Shown piece by piece: positions 46,060 through 55,757 of a DNA stretch of 64,000 bases. Numbering within the stretch: the stretch's first letter is position 1; every line of letters begins with the position of its first letter. Under the pieces are notes generated by a model. It was not told the DNA's origin. It searched no databases and saw nothing but the letters and a program-made list of their open reading frames with translations. Source of the stretch: Lactarius indigo. Taxonomy: Eukaryota; Basidiomycota; Agaricomycetes; Russulales; Russulaceae. The position numbers and the translations under genes are program-made. The stretch is from the NCBI GenBank assembly GCA_025766275.1, contig JAFKAC010000042.1, positions 1 through 64,000 of the forward strand, written 5' to 3'.

Positions 46060-46205
46060 GGCGGCCTGCTTCGGTTAGTTGACCTTTGATTGTAATAGAG
46101 TTGTGTCCAGCCCTTCTTGTGAACGAACCAGCCAACCTTGAAGGTCTCTCTCTTCGTCGTCGTTGTCGTCGTCCGCAGTGGCAATCCAGTTGAGTATTCC
46201 CACTA

Positions 46206-46233
46206 CAGCGGGTTTCATAACGATAGATACCTT
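46206..46233 (+). repeat. Left terminal inverted repeat of the transposon
   Basis: 28 bases, identical to the reverse complement of 50596-50623. A related inner motif, CAGAGCGGGGTTCATAATTA, lies at 46268-46287. Confidence 0.93.
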
Positions 46234-46441
46234 CCATTTTAGATACACAAGCGGACTCCCAAAACCCCAGAGCGGGGTTCATAATTAAGTCCAGGGAAAA
46301 TTCTCCGGCAATTGGGTTATCTTGCCGTATTGGAGTTATGAAATAGTTGTCAGCTTTTGCCGGCGTCGCCACCCCTCCATCACAACCAAGATGACTTCTC
46401 TATTGCGGCTTCCCTCTTCACCTCTTCCTCACTCTTCCTCC

Positions 46442-47523
46442 ATGGTTCGCCGGCACATTTCCAAAGAACTCAAAGAGCAAGCCCTAGCAATGTCCCTTCA
46501 GGGACTGCGTGACTCTGAAGTCTTCGAGTACACTGGGATTAGTGTCCCGACGCTCAAAAGGTGGCGCAGCCAGCACCGCAAGACAGGGAACTCGTATCCC
46601 CCTCCACCACTCGACAATGGTCGCCCGCGCGCACTCACCTCTGTTCAGATTAAGGTATGTACGGAATATCTCAGGCCTAGACATTGTCTCACCCTCATAG
46701 TTCCTCCGCGACACTATTGAGCGTCAGCCTGATATCGCGCTTATGGAGTTGCAGACGGAGCTTCGGGAAACCTGCGACGTTGAGGTTTCACTTCCGACTA
46801 TTATGCGTTCCCTTAAAAGGGAGGGGTACACGATGAAAACGGTATGTGTCCATTCACCGGCTCCATCATTCTCATACTAACATTGAATGATAGGTCACAC
46901 GCCCCGCTCTTGAGCGAAACGAACAAGACCGCGAAGAGTATATGGGGATCATCGCTACGCATTTCCAACCAGAGCAGCTCGTCTTCGCTGACGAGAGTCA
47001 TTTCAACCGACTGACTTTGAGAAGGCCATACGCGTGGTCAATCCGTGGCGAGCGTGCTCGCCGCTTCGAGTTCTTCCTTCGCGGTACGAAGTATTCGATA
47101 CTGCCCGCTCTCTCCCTTGATGGGATACTACACCTCGAGATTGTCGAGAATGTGATAACCGGCGACCACTTTCGACGATTCGTTCAAGGGCTCCTCCTGC
47201 ACATGAACGAGTGGCCGCTGCCAAATTCGGTCCTCGTCATCGACAACGCGTCAATCCACAAGGTGGACGGGATTCGTGAGTTAGTTGAGGGACACGGCGC
47301 ACGCCTCATCTATCTTCCCGCGTATTCGCCAGACCTCAACCCGATCGAACTCGCCTTTTCGTCCATCAAGGCCTGGTTGCGTGCGAACCGTTCTCGCGTC
47401 AATGCGGAACTCAAGTCGGACGATGGCAGTGTCTATAATGCGCTTTGGGAGGCAGTTCATTCTGTCACTCCGGATGATGCGAAGGGCTGGTACGGCCATT
47501 GCGGGTACCAACCTACAGCTTAA
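46442..47523 (+). CDS. Tc1/mariner (IS630-type) DDE transposase
   Basis: Cut-and-paste transposase of 327 residues in three exons: 46442-46654, 46701-46841 and 46894-47523. Introns of 46 and 52 bp have GT..AG ends and keep phase. N-terminus is a helix-turn-helix DNA-binding region (residues ~5-70; SLQGLRDSEVFEYTGISVPT) followed by FLRDTIERQPDIALMELQTE and a second helical unit. The catalytic core has the three acids: VFADESHFN, VLVIDNASIH, and SPDLNPIE. There are 34 residues between the second Asp and the Glu (DD34E). Ends GYQPTA. No stop or frameshift within the exons, so probably active or recently active. The start at MVRRHISKELKEQALAM is favoured because that block begins the typical helix-turn-helix; an upstream in-frame extension is possible. 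Confidence 0.92.
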
Positions 47524-47743
47524 TTTTTTGTATCTACTCTTTTTCATGTACGCGTGCTGGTGGTTGCTCAGAATACTGACGAAAATAAACAACTCGAATT
47601 TGGAGAATTACAGTGCGTATATGATGGCGCGGGTGCGTCAAACCACGTGGGAAAAGCTACCGACCAAGTACGTACATATACGCGCCGGGGGATACGCGTT
47701 GGGGATTGGGGATTGGGGCCGTGGGACAGCTGACAAAGCTTCC

Positions 47744-50050
47744 TCACACCTCCTGCGACGTTGCCATGTCACCATTTTCCTCACCTTCATCCTCCTCGCC
47801 TGACCTCACCCTCATCTCACCTCCCTCGATCTCCTCCGGTGTCTCGACTTCGTCAAGCCATGCTTCAACCACATCAACCATGTTGTCAATGGGTTGGCCC
47901 TCTAAGTTGGGCACTCCCATCTGTTGGGTAAAAGGTGGTGAGTCGTTCAATGCCGTGTGATTGTTACTGACGATCTCCTCCGAGTCTACAAATCCGAGAG
48001 GGATCAAAAATCGATCGCGGCAAAAATCTTGGAGGCGGCGAGCGCTGCTTTGTCGCAGCCACCCGAAAGTCACAAGGAGTTCGACTGGAAGTGAGTACAA
48101 ATCCACGACATCCTCTATCCCCATTTCCTCTAACTCCTCGCATAGACCGACGTGCCGTGGACCAACTGGATAGTGAGTATCCATTAACAGCAGGACGTCC
48201 ATCAGCGATGGCACAGTCAAGGTACCAAGCGCATCAAGAAGAACGAGCAGGAGCGACGGGTGCACAACTTGGATAGGTATTGGCGCAATAGGCCCTGGTG
48301 CGGGCACGACGGGCACTGGAATTGGCACGGTGACAGCCTCTGCAGGCACAATGGGATCCAGTACGGGCACGATGGGCCCTGGTATAGGTATGATATTGTT
48401 GTTGGGTTGAGCGGGTGCTAACGCTGACTGACTTGGGGAGGGCGGTGATGGGCCCAGCATCATGTCCAACGCTTGCACCGTGGACCTCCCTCCTCGTGTA
48501 GGTGTCGCATCGGAACCTGATGCGCTTGGAGCAGGTGACACTGAGCGCGATGGTACGTATGTTGCCTGCACTTTTGACTTTCTTGTTCCCAGCGTAGGTG
48601 TAATATTGACGGACACGTGCACTTCTGGCGGTGCATGTGTGGTCCGAGCCTTTTTGGTTGCTGGGTAATCAAACGCCTTCACATTTGGTCGAGTAAACTT
48701 GTTCGCTTTCTTGAGCGACTGGAACTAGGTGAGCCTTCTGTTGCGCTTGTTCGGAGATTGTCACTCACAATGTACTTCGCCCATAGGCTGATTTCCTTAT
48801 CCGTCAATTCCTTGTGTCCTCCCTTTCTGTTCTCTCCCGACTGCTCAATGACGCAGTATGCCTTCTTTCCGGGTTTGGAGTGCGCCGCACATAAGAGGTG
48901 TTGCCGCAGCTCCAGGATGTGGTCCAGCATATCTGGGGTTGACTCGGGGGGAATGTCGTCTTCATGACGACGTTTCTCCTTCCCCTTTTTGGTGCCGTGC
49001 GCCTTTGACGTTGTGGATGGTTGCTGGAGGTATGAAAGGTCAGTGTATCCTCTGTGTTATAGTGACACGCGATAACTGACCATGTTTTTGATCTCCATCG
49101 ACACAGCACGCGTCTGTGCAGACCGAACCTTTCCCAGCAGCCGTGCAACTGCGTTGTTCCAATCGTTCTCAGACGCAAGGTACGACATCGCACCAGCGTC
49201 CCCGCTGATCCGGAACCCCACACGCACCTCGCTGCGTGGTCTTTCGAAGTGCCGGTATACTTCGTCGAGAAACTCATACCACTTCATGTCGGTATGAGCA
49301 TTGAAGGTATGTCTAATGTTCTCGTCGACCACGTCAACCCGGAATTCCCAAACTTCAACATGATCAGCCGCCAACTTCTTGGGATGACGGTATGTAATAC
49401 TCACCTCCTTTGCTGATCTCTTTATTAGGATAGGACTTCCCTAGCCGGGAAACTGCAGTCGATGACGAAGCAGCACCGTTGGTGCCCACCCCCCCACCAT
49501 TCCCGCGCCCAAGAGCTGGCCCATCCTCTGGCCCATTAGCGACATGACCACGCGTGTCGCGTGCAGGGGGCGAACCTTCCTCGCCAGTCATGGCGTGCAG
49601 GGCAGCCGGCAGATCCATTAGGAAAGGACTCGGTGGAGGAGCCATGGGGTACTGTGCGTAACTCCATGGCTGAAGCGGTGCAGCACTGATGCCGGGACCA
49701 TAGGTATGGTGATACGAGACTGGTGGGTATGCTGGTGGGTAGAAAGTCCCACCATAAGGGTGCGCGTAGGTCGGTGGTGCAGTCGCAGGCAGACCAGCCA
49801 AGAATTGCTGACTATCGTTTGGGATAGGAAGGCCTGCCACTGAAGGCGGCAGATACGGAGGCAAGTGAGGGACCTCAGGCAAGACCTCGGGTGGCGGTGG
49901 TGACATCGGCGGCAGTGAGTCTGGAGTAGATGGCAGCGACGAGTCTGGCTGTGGCAGACGTAGGATGACTTTGCGCACACGAGACTGTGGCTGCTTGGAT
50001 GAGCTATCTCGGGCACGCGCACTCTTTCGATGACGTTGAGTAGGGGACAT
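47744..50050 (-). CDS. Transposon-borne gene of unknown function (PB1-like and SAM-like segments)
   Basis: About 717 residues in four exons: 50050-49405, 49352-49081, 49023-48769 and 48724-47744. Introns are 44-57 bp, GT..AG, in phase. Residues 1-215: basic start (MSPTQRHRKSARARDSSSKQ) then Pro/Tyr-rich disorder. Residues ~216-305: a compact fold, WEFRVDVVDENIRHTFNAHT through YLASENDWNNAVARL to AVSMEIKNM, whose pattern resembles a PB1/ubiquitin-like domain. Then a Lys/Arg-rich stretch (GTKKGKEKRRHEDD), helical DMLDHILELRQHLLCAA, and a Pro/Ile/Val repeat region. Residues ~555-625: a SAM-like helical bundle (ELEEMGIEDVVDLYSLPVEL..RRLQDFCRDRF). Acidic C-terminus. It lies inside the transposon ends, so it is cargo or an accessory transposition factor. 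I do not recognise a named family; the two fold assignments are inference. Confidence 0.8.
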
Positions 50051-50595
50051 GTCTAGGTATGTCAATGATCCTTTCGGTATCATATTTTCAGTAAACGCGC
50101 TCACCTTTTATACATCCCATTTCAGGGTTCACTTGCCTGCGTCGTACGCCCCCTCTTCCCCATCGCTAGACTCGCCAGTCCCCTGTTTCAACTCTCAAAC
50201 ACCACAGCTGCAGCCTATTCTATTTACGAAGGTAACGACGCCTTTCTGTTGACGACGCGAGTTGTGCTGGGGGCTACTTTTCCGACGGCCAATTGAGTCG
50301 TGTTTCTTACCGCGCGCAAGCCATGTGTATGCCATTATTCTCTTGACGACCAGACGTGTAGTAGCTATATTTCATATGACTATGTATCCTATTTCATCGG
50401 ACTGTCCCCCGCGTAAAGCAGCGTCCTCGCGTAGTGCCTATTGTACGACTTCGTCTTGAAAACAGCGTCTCAAAAATGATAAGTGCATTATATGGATTCA
50501 TTTTTTAATTAATATAATTAGTTTTTATGGCAAGAAAACTCGGCATGGTTGCCGAAGCGCCCATTCAAACCCCGCTGTGTGTAAAAAATCGTCCT

Positions 50596-50623
50596 AAGGT
50601 ATCTATCGTTATGAAACCCGCTG
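50596..50623 (-). repeat. Right terminal inverted repeat of the transposon
   Basis: Exact reverse complement of 46206-46233, followed by TA. An inner related motif (minus strand ACAGCGGGGTTTGAATGG) lies at 50561-50578. Confidence 0.93.
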
Positions 50624-50691
50624 TAAGCGTCTAATGATTATGTAACATTACTCCCTGCCTTCAACTCGTTCAGTCCCGTTCAGGTTGGACA

Positions 50692-52873: not shown

Positions 52874-53745
52874 ACTTTGTCTTTCTGTTATTTAGTCTTA
52901 CAATAGCGCAGGGACTTTCTCGATTTACAGTGAGATAGACGCATCATATCGTAGGTAGCGAGATGTGGAGCTCGGGCGTAAGCTTTGTCATACGAAAGTG
53001 CCACTATGATTCAGATGGGCACATCGCGCTCGCTCGCCATGGTGTGTAATGACGGCCGGACCAAGGGCCCCTTGAAGGGCCGGACTCCCAAGGAATCCCA
53101 AGGAGTAAATTAAATCAAATAACGAAAGCTTGAATGAAAGGTCCTGACAAGAGGTGGCACAGTGGGGATAACGCACCTCTGAGTCCGAAAAACAGGCTAG
53201 GGTGTGTAACGGTATCAAGGAGAGACATACAACGAACCCGCATCAACACATCATACACATGTACGCATCGTGGCATTCAAGTTGCTGAATCAAGCGATAA
53301 CGTAACTGACTGAGTCAGGCGAAGACCGTGACCTTGCAGCACATCAAGTCCGTACAGTCACCATTAAGGTAAATTGTGTGTTCCGTGGGACTCCGACTCT
53401 GTATGTCGATGATCTTCTGATTGGCAACTCCACCGTGGAGACGACCTGCCCACTTTCCATGGAGTTTAGAGTGCCTCGGACAAGGTTTGTAGTAATCCTC
53501 AAACCATGTTAAGTGAGCCCTGACCAGCATACCATACCAGGACTTGGGCTACATCTTTCCCACCCGACAGCAGTGAAATTCATGGGCGTCGGCAGCGATA
53601 AGAGCCCAGGGTATGCCATATGCGCTGCTCCAAGTTCCCACGACCCTACAACGGCATATCTGATGACCTGCCGGTGGTACCTCGAAGGCCGCTTCACGAT
53701 AAAAAGAAGTGTTCAATGCACCCTGCTTCTTAACATCCTCTCAAG
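52874..53745. other. Intergenic region, no gene seen
   Basis: Upstream of P450 paralogue 2. Short open frames only. A GGGCC-containing repeat (CCAAGGGCCCCTTGAAGGGCC, 53060 region) and CCAAGGAATCCCAAGGA at 53089-53105 are short local repeats. Confidence 0.4.
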
Positions 53746-55757
53746 ATGCTCAATCTCGTTCGATATGACTTTCTCCTCGCCATCGTGGTGGGCCTCAGCA
53801 GCCTGGCATTGCTGGTGACGCGTGCCAGTAAGCGTCGCCTACCTTACCCACCAGGACCCACGTCTTTCCCGGTTGTCGGAAATCTATTCAGCATGCCATC
53901 ACGGGAGGAGTGGGTAACATACAGGAAGTGGTCTGAAGAGCTGGGTGTGTGCATTCTCGTCGTCTTCACCTTGTCCCTGCTAATTTTGGCCTTCGTCAGG
54001 CTCTGACATTATCCATGCCGATGTCATGGGATCGCATATTATTATCCTCAATTCAATAAAAGCCGCAAGTGAATTGCTTGATAAGCGCTCCTCCATCTAT
54101 TCTGATAGGTAAGATGGAAAAGGGGCAAGTGGTCCAATTGTCGACTAGTCTGATCCACTTTCCAAGACCACCTCTGGTCGCAGTGCAGGAACTGTATGTT
54201 CGGGTCTTATTAGCTAACATCCGGTCGTGCCCTAATAGCCTGTTATCTAAAGCTTTGGAATGGATTACAATATTGCCCTCCTGCAATACGGGACTGCATG
54301 GCGTCACTCGCGCCGCGAATTCCAGGCAAACTTTGGTCCTGCAGACCTCGAGGCGTACCAACCTCTCGAGCAACGAGCAGTTCATCGTCTTCTCCGCAAT
54401 CTGCTTTCATCCCCAGACAACTTCATGCAGCACCTCAGGCAGTGAGTACCCTAGTTGCGTCGAACTTATTTGTGTTTGTTCATTCCGAGGGAAAGCATGG
54501 CTGGTCAGGTCATCCTGTCGATTGCTTATGGTATCGATGTGCTCCCAGAGAATGACCCATATGTAGCGGACGCAGAAAATGTTATGAATGCTTTCGCAGT
54601 CAGCACGACCAAGGAAGCCTTGCTTCTTGATTTAATTCCCTGGTGTATTTACTACTACCGGTTTATTTCATTCTCGGAACCTGATAAATGTTCGCAGTGA
54701 TCAAGATGCCAAGCTGGCTTCCAGGAGCCCGGTACAAGCGGTATGCACGCGAATGGTACCCTATAGTCGTTGGCGCTGTGAAGACCACATACGATAAAGT
54801 CAAGAGCGAACTCGTGAGCACTGTCGGTGCCTCTTTACTCATCATACCAACGATAGATTCATCCAGGCCGCGGGTACAGCCGCTCCATCTGTCGCTGCGA
54901 AACTTATATCAAACCTTGATGAAGATTCAACGGAGGAAGACTTTTGGGTTGCTAGGGCCGTCCCTGGTTCGATGTATTTGGCCGGCGCAGACACTGTGAG
55001 TTTAAGTTTTTGAGTTGAGCGCCCCGGATTTGTCACCTGCAGTCAATGAGCTGATGCATCATCCCTCAGACCGTCTCTGTTTTGCAGACATTCGTCCTCG
55101 CAATGACACTGTACCCAGAAGTCCAGCGGAAGGCACAAGCTGAGATCGATCAGGTCGTCGGAAAATCACGCCTCCCAGATTTCTCAGACCAAGACGCACT
55201 TCCATACGTGCAAGCAGTACTCAAAGAGGTCTTACGCTGGCATCCAGTCGCTCCACTTGGTGTGTTATTGCATGTCACAACATTTGTGGTGGTAAGTTAG
55301 TAATATGGTTACTCTAACAGGCGGGCCACGCAAGGTCGCTGTAAGTGACATCTACGAGGGATATTACATTCCCGCAGGCTCGACAATTATTCCAAATACC
55401 TGGTATGCCTCTTTACGAGCTTCATTTTTCCATGTATCGACCGTGGCAATTCCTAGGGGGATGATGCACGATCCTGCCGTCTTTGCGGAGCCAGACAGGT
55501 TCCATCCCGAGCGCTGGCTCTCCCCAGATGCGCCAGCTTTCCCGCATCAGGCATTCGGTTTCGGATCACGACAGTGTCCAGGTCGCGTCCTCGCGCGCGC
55601 AAGCATCTGGTCGAATATTGTGGGAATATTAGCCACGTTCGATATTACCCCTACCAAGGACGGGCCCCCGCCTGAGGAGGCATATTCATCGGGTCTCGTG
55701 TCGTGCGTCGATTCGGCTCTTGTTCCGATAAATAAGCTAACGTGGAGTGTATTGTAG
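53746..55757 (+). CDS. Cytochrome P450 monooxygenase, paralogue 2
   Basis: Close paralogue of the P450 at 35946-37910, in opposite orientation. Start ATG 53746: anchor [40 protein letters not shown]. Exons continue with [88 protein letters not shown]-helix [21 protein letters not shown]-helix LKEVLRW (ExxR), [39 protein letters not shown] and haem site [15 protein letters not shown]. Ends LTWSVL, stop 55755-55757. About ten exons with intron positions matching paralogue 1. Intact as far as can be read. Substrate unknown. Confidence 0.9.

Follow-up and report, generated by a model that had tools for sequence, protein, structure and literature searches.

A two-gene IS630-Tc1-mariner transposon of Lactarius indigo and its probable accessory protein

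Tc1/mariner elements are the textbook minimal transposons, with one enzyme and two ends. Several more complex systems have been described. According to the respective reports, the TBE elements of Oxytricha carry a Tc1/mariner transposase and accessory open reading frames (ORFs) within their ends, the 22 kD ORF is reversed, and the genes are under purifying selection, with ratios of nonsynonymous to synonymous substitution rates (dN/dS) of 0.1–0.3 (PMC4724952). Tec from Euplotes and Sardine, Thon, and Anchois from Paramecium are also multi-ORF Tc1/mariner elements (PMC3464196, PMC7325037). The PIF/Harbinger elements Ping, Pong, and zebrafish Harbinger3 require two element-encoded proteins, and miniature inverted-repeat transposable elements (MITEs) are mobilised in trans (PMC2836001). 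Here we analyse a 64,000-nucleotide stretch of the genome of the fungus Lactarius indigo, the blue milk-cap mushroom (the window, G000:C229:1-64000), which belongs to an assembly of 90.3 Mb in 291 contigs (G000; contigs are cited by C-numbers). The window contains a 4,418-bp element, spanning exactly positions 46206–50623, that encodes a DD34E transposase and a second protein, g2. The element is very probably a cut-and-paste transposon of the IS630-Tc1-mariner superfamily that is autonomous and has two genes, in which g2 would serve as a selected accessory protein and not be cargo.

The ends of the element are 28-bp terminal inverted repeats (46206–46233 on the + strand and 50596–50623 on the − strand). 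As claimed in the original prediction, which was made from the letters of the window alone, the repeats are perfect: they are complementary at 28 of 28 positions, and at 30 of 30 when the flanking TA target-site duplications (46204–46205 and 50624–50625) are included. The end pattern (28 nucleotides, up to three mismatches) occurs 71 times in the genome, and a reversed control pattern does not occur in it. A whole-element search, in which scoring covered the best 40 of 191 candidates, identified at least seven uninterrupted full-length copies: C229a, which is the window copy, C138, C229b, C31, C236, C29, and C23. Each of the seven is flanked by TA at either end, and both genes are open in all of them with the conserved start and acceptor, so that the several two-gene copies between matching ends anticipated by the original prediction do exist. 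The same ends enclosing a transposase alone, which the prediction had regarded as evidence to the contrary, were not found among the uninterrupted full-length copies. The DNA identity within the window subfamily is 81–90% between lineages, and two close pairs reach 98.0 and 99.4%. Further copies are split by insertions, for example C2:1101598-1113683, which is 99% identical and contains a 7.7-kb insert. Inserts of about 7–25 kb split the two-gene copies C2:904027-938464, C68:776110-796178, C237:1079412-1108928, and C273:211007-223139. A second full two-gene copy, G000:C229:78222-82593, lies on the same contig beyond the window, 28 kb to the right of the window element, and is 82% identical to it by blast.

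The transposase gene is located on the + strand and consists of three exons (46442–46654, 46701–46841, and 46894–47523), delimited by copy comparison, and two introns. It encodes 327 residues. The start codon is most likely at 46442, because the upstream ATG at 46391 is not conserved among the copies: it is lost in C31 and C236, and in C229b a reading that begins with it is out of frame. The third exon encodes the catalytic domain, which matches Pfam DDE_3 (E = 6e-32), and ends with the stop codon. The catalytic triad, assigned by eye, is D151/D235/E270, where 34 residues separate D235 from E270, and together with the open frame in all seven copies this bears out the earlier claim of an intact DD34E transposase. 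In the transposase alignment A4, D235 is invariant and E270 nearly so, and all 12 rows match the NCBIfam IS630 model at E 0.01 or better; the window transposase clears the cut-off of the model with 174.9 against 100 bits. The DD34E domain, insertion into and duplication of TA, and short terminal inverted repeats place the element in the IS630-Tc1-mariner group. The N-terminal part of the transposase may contain a helix-turn-helix (HTH), to which Pfam families match only below their cut-offs (HTH_32, 27 bits compared with 33.7), and has a weak match to the PAX paired domain (E 0.011). Relatives of the transposase are present in Trametes, Dentipellis, Candolleomyces, and Panaeolus. When viral and GTDB contigs were scanned with it, the listings comprised 78 loci and the best 80 of 517, respectively, all apparently of the bacterial IS630 type and without fungal context. 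Their identity to the transposase in the best segment is 25–61%, high only where the segment is short, and the three best GTDB matches are 36–39% identical in this segment.

A 220-bp spacer (47524–47743) separates the facing stop codons of the transposase gene and g2, which is convergent with it and runs on the − strand from 50050 to 47744 in four exons and three introns. Exon 1 (49405–50050) encodes a basic start and a proline-rich disordered region, exon 2 (49081–49352) a PB1-fold domain, exon 3 (48769–49023) invariant C, H, C, and H residues, and exon 4 (47744–48718) a SAM/HhH-like domain and an acidic tail. Of the intact four-exon gene for about 717 residues that had been proposed, the four exons and the open reading frame stand and the length does not. 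The acceptor at 48724, which gives 717 residues, introduces an in-frame TAG into C31 and C236; for this reason we chose the acceptor at 48718, which gives a predicted protein of 715 residues and a reading frame open in all seven copies. The database protein model of the window copy of g2 (H4582DRAFT_2061704, Lactarius indigo; P0001) is identical to g2 across the aligned part and has 606 residues, and because of this difference the exon ends are to be taken as predictions.

The predicted g2 protein is composed of the PB1-fold domain, the C/H/C/H module, and the SAM- or HhH-like domain, with disordered stretches between them. The PB1 domain is recognised by its fold at residues 217–310, and the Pfam PB1 model does not match g2 at E up to 1. 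Residues 558–640 are a candidate SAM or RAD51-N-terminal-like HhH domain. For the C/H/C/H module no fold stood out in the fold comparison, the list of which was filled by the PB1 part. A Foldseek search with the full-length g2 model gave no match at E 0.001, and no viral contig matched g2. Even at E up to 1, a Pfam scan of 15 g2 proteins gave no Myb match for any of them, and it lists no recombinase, kinase, or zinc finger for the proteins scanned. Comparison with Rfam, Pfam, and PDB sequences identified neither g2 nor the element above threshold.

Purifying selection acts on both genes. In four copy pairs with bootstrap intervals, the dN/dS values are 0.062, 0.068, 0.062, and 0.087 for the transposase and 0.250, 0.207, 0.189, and 0.214 for g2, and the highest upper bound for either gene is 0.324. 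The 19 distant pairs among all 21 give 0.05–0.10 for the transposase and 0.18–0.25 for g2. In the two close pairs, which differ by few changes, the transposase values are 0.16 and 1.56 (5 versus 1 changes) and those of g2 are 0.36 and 0.37. The introns and spacer of the window copy diverge from those of the other copies by 5–33%. The view that a gene came to lie by chance between two unrelated ends, or that the annotation misleads, could draw on the uncertain exon ends only; it is refuted by the repeated architecture, the matched ends, the selection, and the empty sites described below, and we regard its probability as negligible.

Empty sites were sought by joining flanks of about 110 + 110 bp with a single TA and searching the same genome. 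The sample comprised 13 insertions: the seven full copies, C282 from another subfamily, one transposase-only element, and four MITEs. A match across the join was found for 12 of the 13, and at 94% identity or more for 10. The joined flanks of C138, C23, and two MITEs match at 100% and equal length (C138, for example, at C215), and thus the single TA that had been expected from a sister strain is present within this assembly. The joins for C282 and C5 had shorter right flanks; that for C5 was two bases short, which is consistent with its 97% match and three extra subject bases. The matches of C31 and C229b, at only 81–87%, are probably repeats and not alleles, and the search returned no match for C236. 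The empty site of the window copy is C112:889816-890035 (94%). Judged from the coordinates, the 110 bp of left flank stop there at the very TA from which the right flank starts, and the right flank continues at C112:889924-893312 with 95% identity over 3.4 kb. This region of C112, the probable allele without the element, lacks g2 as well; a second gene residing at a locus devoid of the element, the other contrary outcome named in advance, is thus not seen. The single-TA empty sites, including that of the window locus, show that the gene pair moves as one unit. Because near-identical insertion-free sites exist for 10 of the 13 insertions, both haplotypes are probably in the assembly, which seems to represent the two nuclei of a dikaryon. 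At the window locus, the two-gene unit appears to be present on one haplotype and absent from the other.

In the L. indigo genome, members of this transposase clade usually have the two-gene layout. The genome contains 86 matches to the g2 protein, 145 to the transposase, and 92 to the divergent g2 of locus C226. Sixty-six transposase places, including divergent subfamilies, were chosen by hand, mostly as one row (the catalytic exon) per locus, with some split copies counted as both pieces, and were compared with a subset of the g2 rows. At 44 of the 66, g2 lies downstream and convergent within 5 kb; no other arrangement occurs, and 22 places have no g2. These 22 consist of seven members of a deletion family, seven apparent pieces of insertion-split copies (two of which, C1 and C263, were assigned from spacing), and eight other fragments or untested places. 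Conversely, the g2-protein search defined 41 g2 clusters: 29 within 1.4 kb of a transposase, seven in split copies, four at about 0.55 kb from an element end, and one alone (C24:1013239). The two genes have co-diverged. The protein distances of the transposase and g2 correlate among 13 copies with r = 0.970, among 12 copies without C226B with r = 0.958, and over eight lineages with r = 0.973, and in each case none of 5000 permutations was as high. The permutation leaves shared ancestry in, and shared ancestry of both genes is the point being made. In the copy least like that of the window, the transposase is 61% and g2 33% identical.

Shortened derivatives accompany the two-gene elements. A 1.8-kb transposase-only family with other ends has seven copies that are 98–100% identical (for example G000:C5:70591-72405, and six further loci). 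The transposase of copy C5 is open except at its intron. The family nests inside the two-gene clade and keeps a 31-nucleotide stretch spanning the g2 stop codon, which is 87% identical to that of the two-gene relative C286 (E 4e-5). Because of this position and the leftover stretch, the family most likely is a derivative that lost g2 by deletion and still spread, and its spread indicates that g2 is not needed in cis. MITE-like relatives of the family, about 0.7 kb long, are found at seven places. Sixteen MITEs, each 291 bp long when its TAs are included, belong to the window subfamily (for example L022 1503-1789); they were counted by hand as end-match pairs 263 bp apart. One MITE inspected by eye retains about 170 bp from the left side of the element and 115 bp from the right side, subterminal blocks included. 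Two further end pairs lie about 1.4 kb apart on C181 and C195.

Several observations weigh against g2 being a selected accessory protein of the element. The Pfam scan of g2 proteins gave just two rows, both at chance level (E 0.16 and 0.19, one protein each), and no PDB sequence matches g2 at E 0.001. Beyond the 66, four transposase places that are more distant (C245, C237:801475, and two on C201) lack a g2 match in the surrounding 5 kb. When only the window subfamily is considered (five copies), the distance correlation is weaker, at 0.79, with 39 of 1000 permutations as high, and the most divergent copy, C226B, sits differently in the transposase and g2 trees, which is probably a long-branch effect. 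The youngest burst is that of the g2-less family, so g2 is dispensable in cis and may even restrain movement. The remaining points are those on which a cargo origin would rest, with g2 a captured host gene or its relative that benefits the fungus rather than the element. All named g2 homologues found belong to Lactarius. The g2 relative C24:1013239-1014222, a candidate domesticated or orphaned copy, has no transposase match within 200 kb on its contig. The g2-like C2:644339-644986 and C280:3782-4707 have no transposase match nearby; they resemble each other, are 38–39% identical to the divergent g2, and are perhaps one host locus on two haplotypes. Nevertheless, 40 of the 41 g2 clusters adjoin a transposase, sit in insertion-split copies, or neighbour element ends, and the distances of the two proteins co-vary down to 33% and 61% identity. 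The original prediction had left the choice between captured cargo and an accessory factor. Since g2 has co-diverged with the transposase and, apart from three unpaired places, is found in or beside elements almost everywhere, the accessory factor is favoured, and cargo is improbable.

The g2-less burst could also mean that g2 is a self-limiting regulator, a repressor or titrating scaffold that holds copy number low, and that its loss triggered the amplification. The seven near-identical deletion-family copies, compared with few and mostly sequence-distant two-gene copies in the window subfamily, are consistent with such a role, and PB1 and SAM-like domains would suit oligomeric control. However, short deletion derivatives often outgrow their parents, as the 16 window-subfamily MITEs did, and the burst therefore needs no repressor. 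Some two-gene lineages have also spread recently: three C282-type copies are at 99% identity, and the g2 pieces of a clade-B set are 89–100% identical. We consider a repressive g2 unlikely.

Conserved subterminal blocks may be the sites at which g2 acts. The motif GAGCGGGGTTCATA (46270–46283, + strand) is a candidate protein-binding site; it recurs at a similar distance from the end, with 0–1 differences on visual comparison, in a 291-bp MITE and in subfamilies whose outer ends differ. On the right side, a conserved block (50532–50555, − strand) contains TCGGCAACCATGCCGA and is retained with changes in the MITE. VANC of plant VANDAL elements is an anti-silencing factor, and g2 might similarly counteract host silencing, with copies bearing the subterminal blocks as its targets in trans. 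The presence of the blocks in all inspected subfamilies and in the MITE, the dispensability of g2 in cis, and its disordered, interaction-domain-rich composition are in line with this idea; however, Pfam and fold comparisons link g2 to no known anti-silencing protein, and we rate this function as slightly less likely still than repression.

We therefore return to g2 as an element-encoded accessory gene, which it very probably is. PB1 and SAM-type domains are interaction modules. A co-factor or scaffold for transposition is a plausible function, although we hold it at a little under an even chance, and regulation or chromatin access may be about as likely as direct help. The transposase would bind the ends and move the DNA between TA sites. 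The g2 protein may enter the nucleus by means of its basic stretch KKGKEKRR, self-assemble through the PB1 and SAM-like domains, and contact DNA or a partner with the C/H/C/H module, and may thus help the transposase to assemble on, or reach, the subterminal blocks. Because transposase-only derivatives amplified, g2 would be supplied in trans, or would be helpful rather than essential. More tentatively, we propose a fungal two-protein lineage in which the PB1/CHCH/SAM-like scaffold forms polymers on the subterminal blocks and licenses transposition or sets its timing, and in which the transposase-only and MITE derivatives exploit this scaffold in trans. The presence of such domains in a transposon accessory protein points to assembly-based control. 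A Tc1/mariner-class transposon can be a two-protein system, with the second protein kept through dozens of copies. Since the partner was kept while the transposases drifted to about 60% identity, why a minimal transposon keeps a partner becomes testable, and the genome offers natural controls in its two-gene copies, transposase-only copies, MITEs, and single-TA empty sites.

Outside the element, positions 53678–54000 of the window are part of a dispersed repeat (70–78% identity) with several occurrences on C229, C112, C234, and C235.

In comparison with known systems, the L. indigo transposase fits the model of bacterial IS630, whereas the element has introns, a eukaryotic host, and a second gene. 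In typical one-gene Tc1/mariner elements the transposase is the sole gene; here g2 is open in all seven copies. Searches of an open-access library listed no two-gene fungal Tc1/mariner element, which does not prove that none has been published. According to its description, TBE shares with the L. indigo element a transposase and an accessory ORF inside the ends, one reversed gene, and purifying selection. TBE differs in its three ORFs, telomere-like ends, and ciliate germline context; its accessory ORFs were compared with g2 by description. Tec, Sardine, and Thon, likewise compared with g2 by description, differ in having a putative site-specific (tyrosine) recombinase and ciliate hosts. PIF/Harbinger elements are similar in their two separate element-encoded proteins and MITE derivatives, but have a 3-bp target site (TAA in Ping) and a Myb-like ORF1, whereas the L. 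indigo element uses TA and its g2 has no Myb match. Their transposase is of a different DDE type, while that of the L. indigo element is DDE_3/IS630-like. Since the L. indigo transposase seems, from its weak HTH matches, to have a DNA-binding part of its own, unlike that of PIF/Harbinger, there is less need for g2 as a pure DNA-binding adaptor. The ciliate TBE and Tec elements and PIF/Harbinger are the nearest precedents of the two-gene element of L. indigo.

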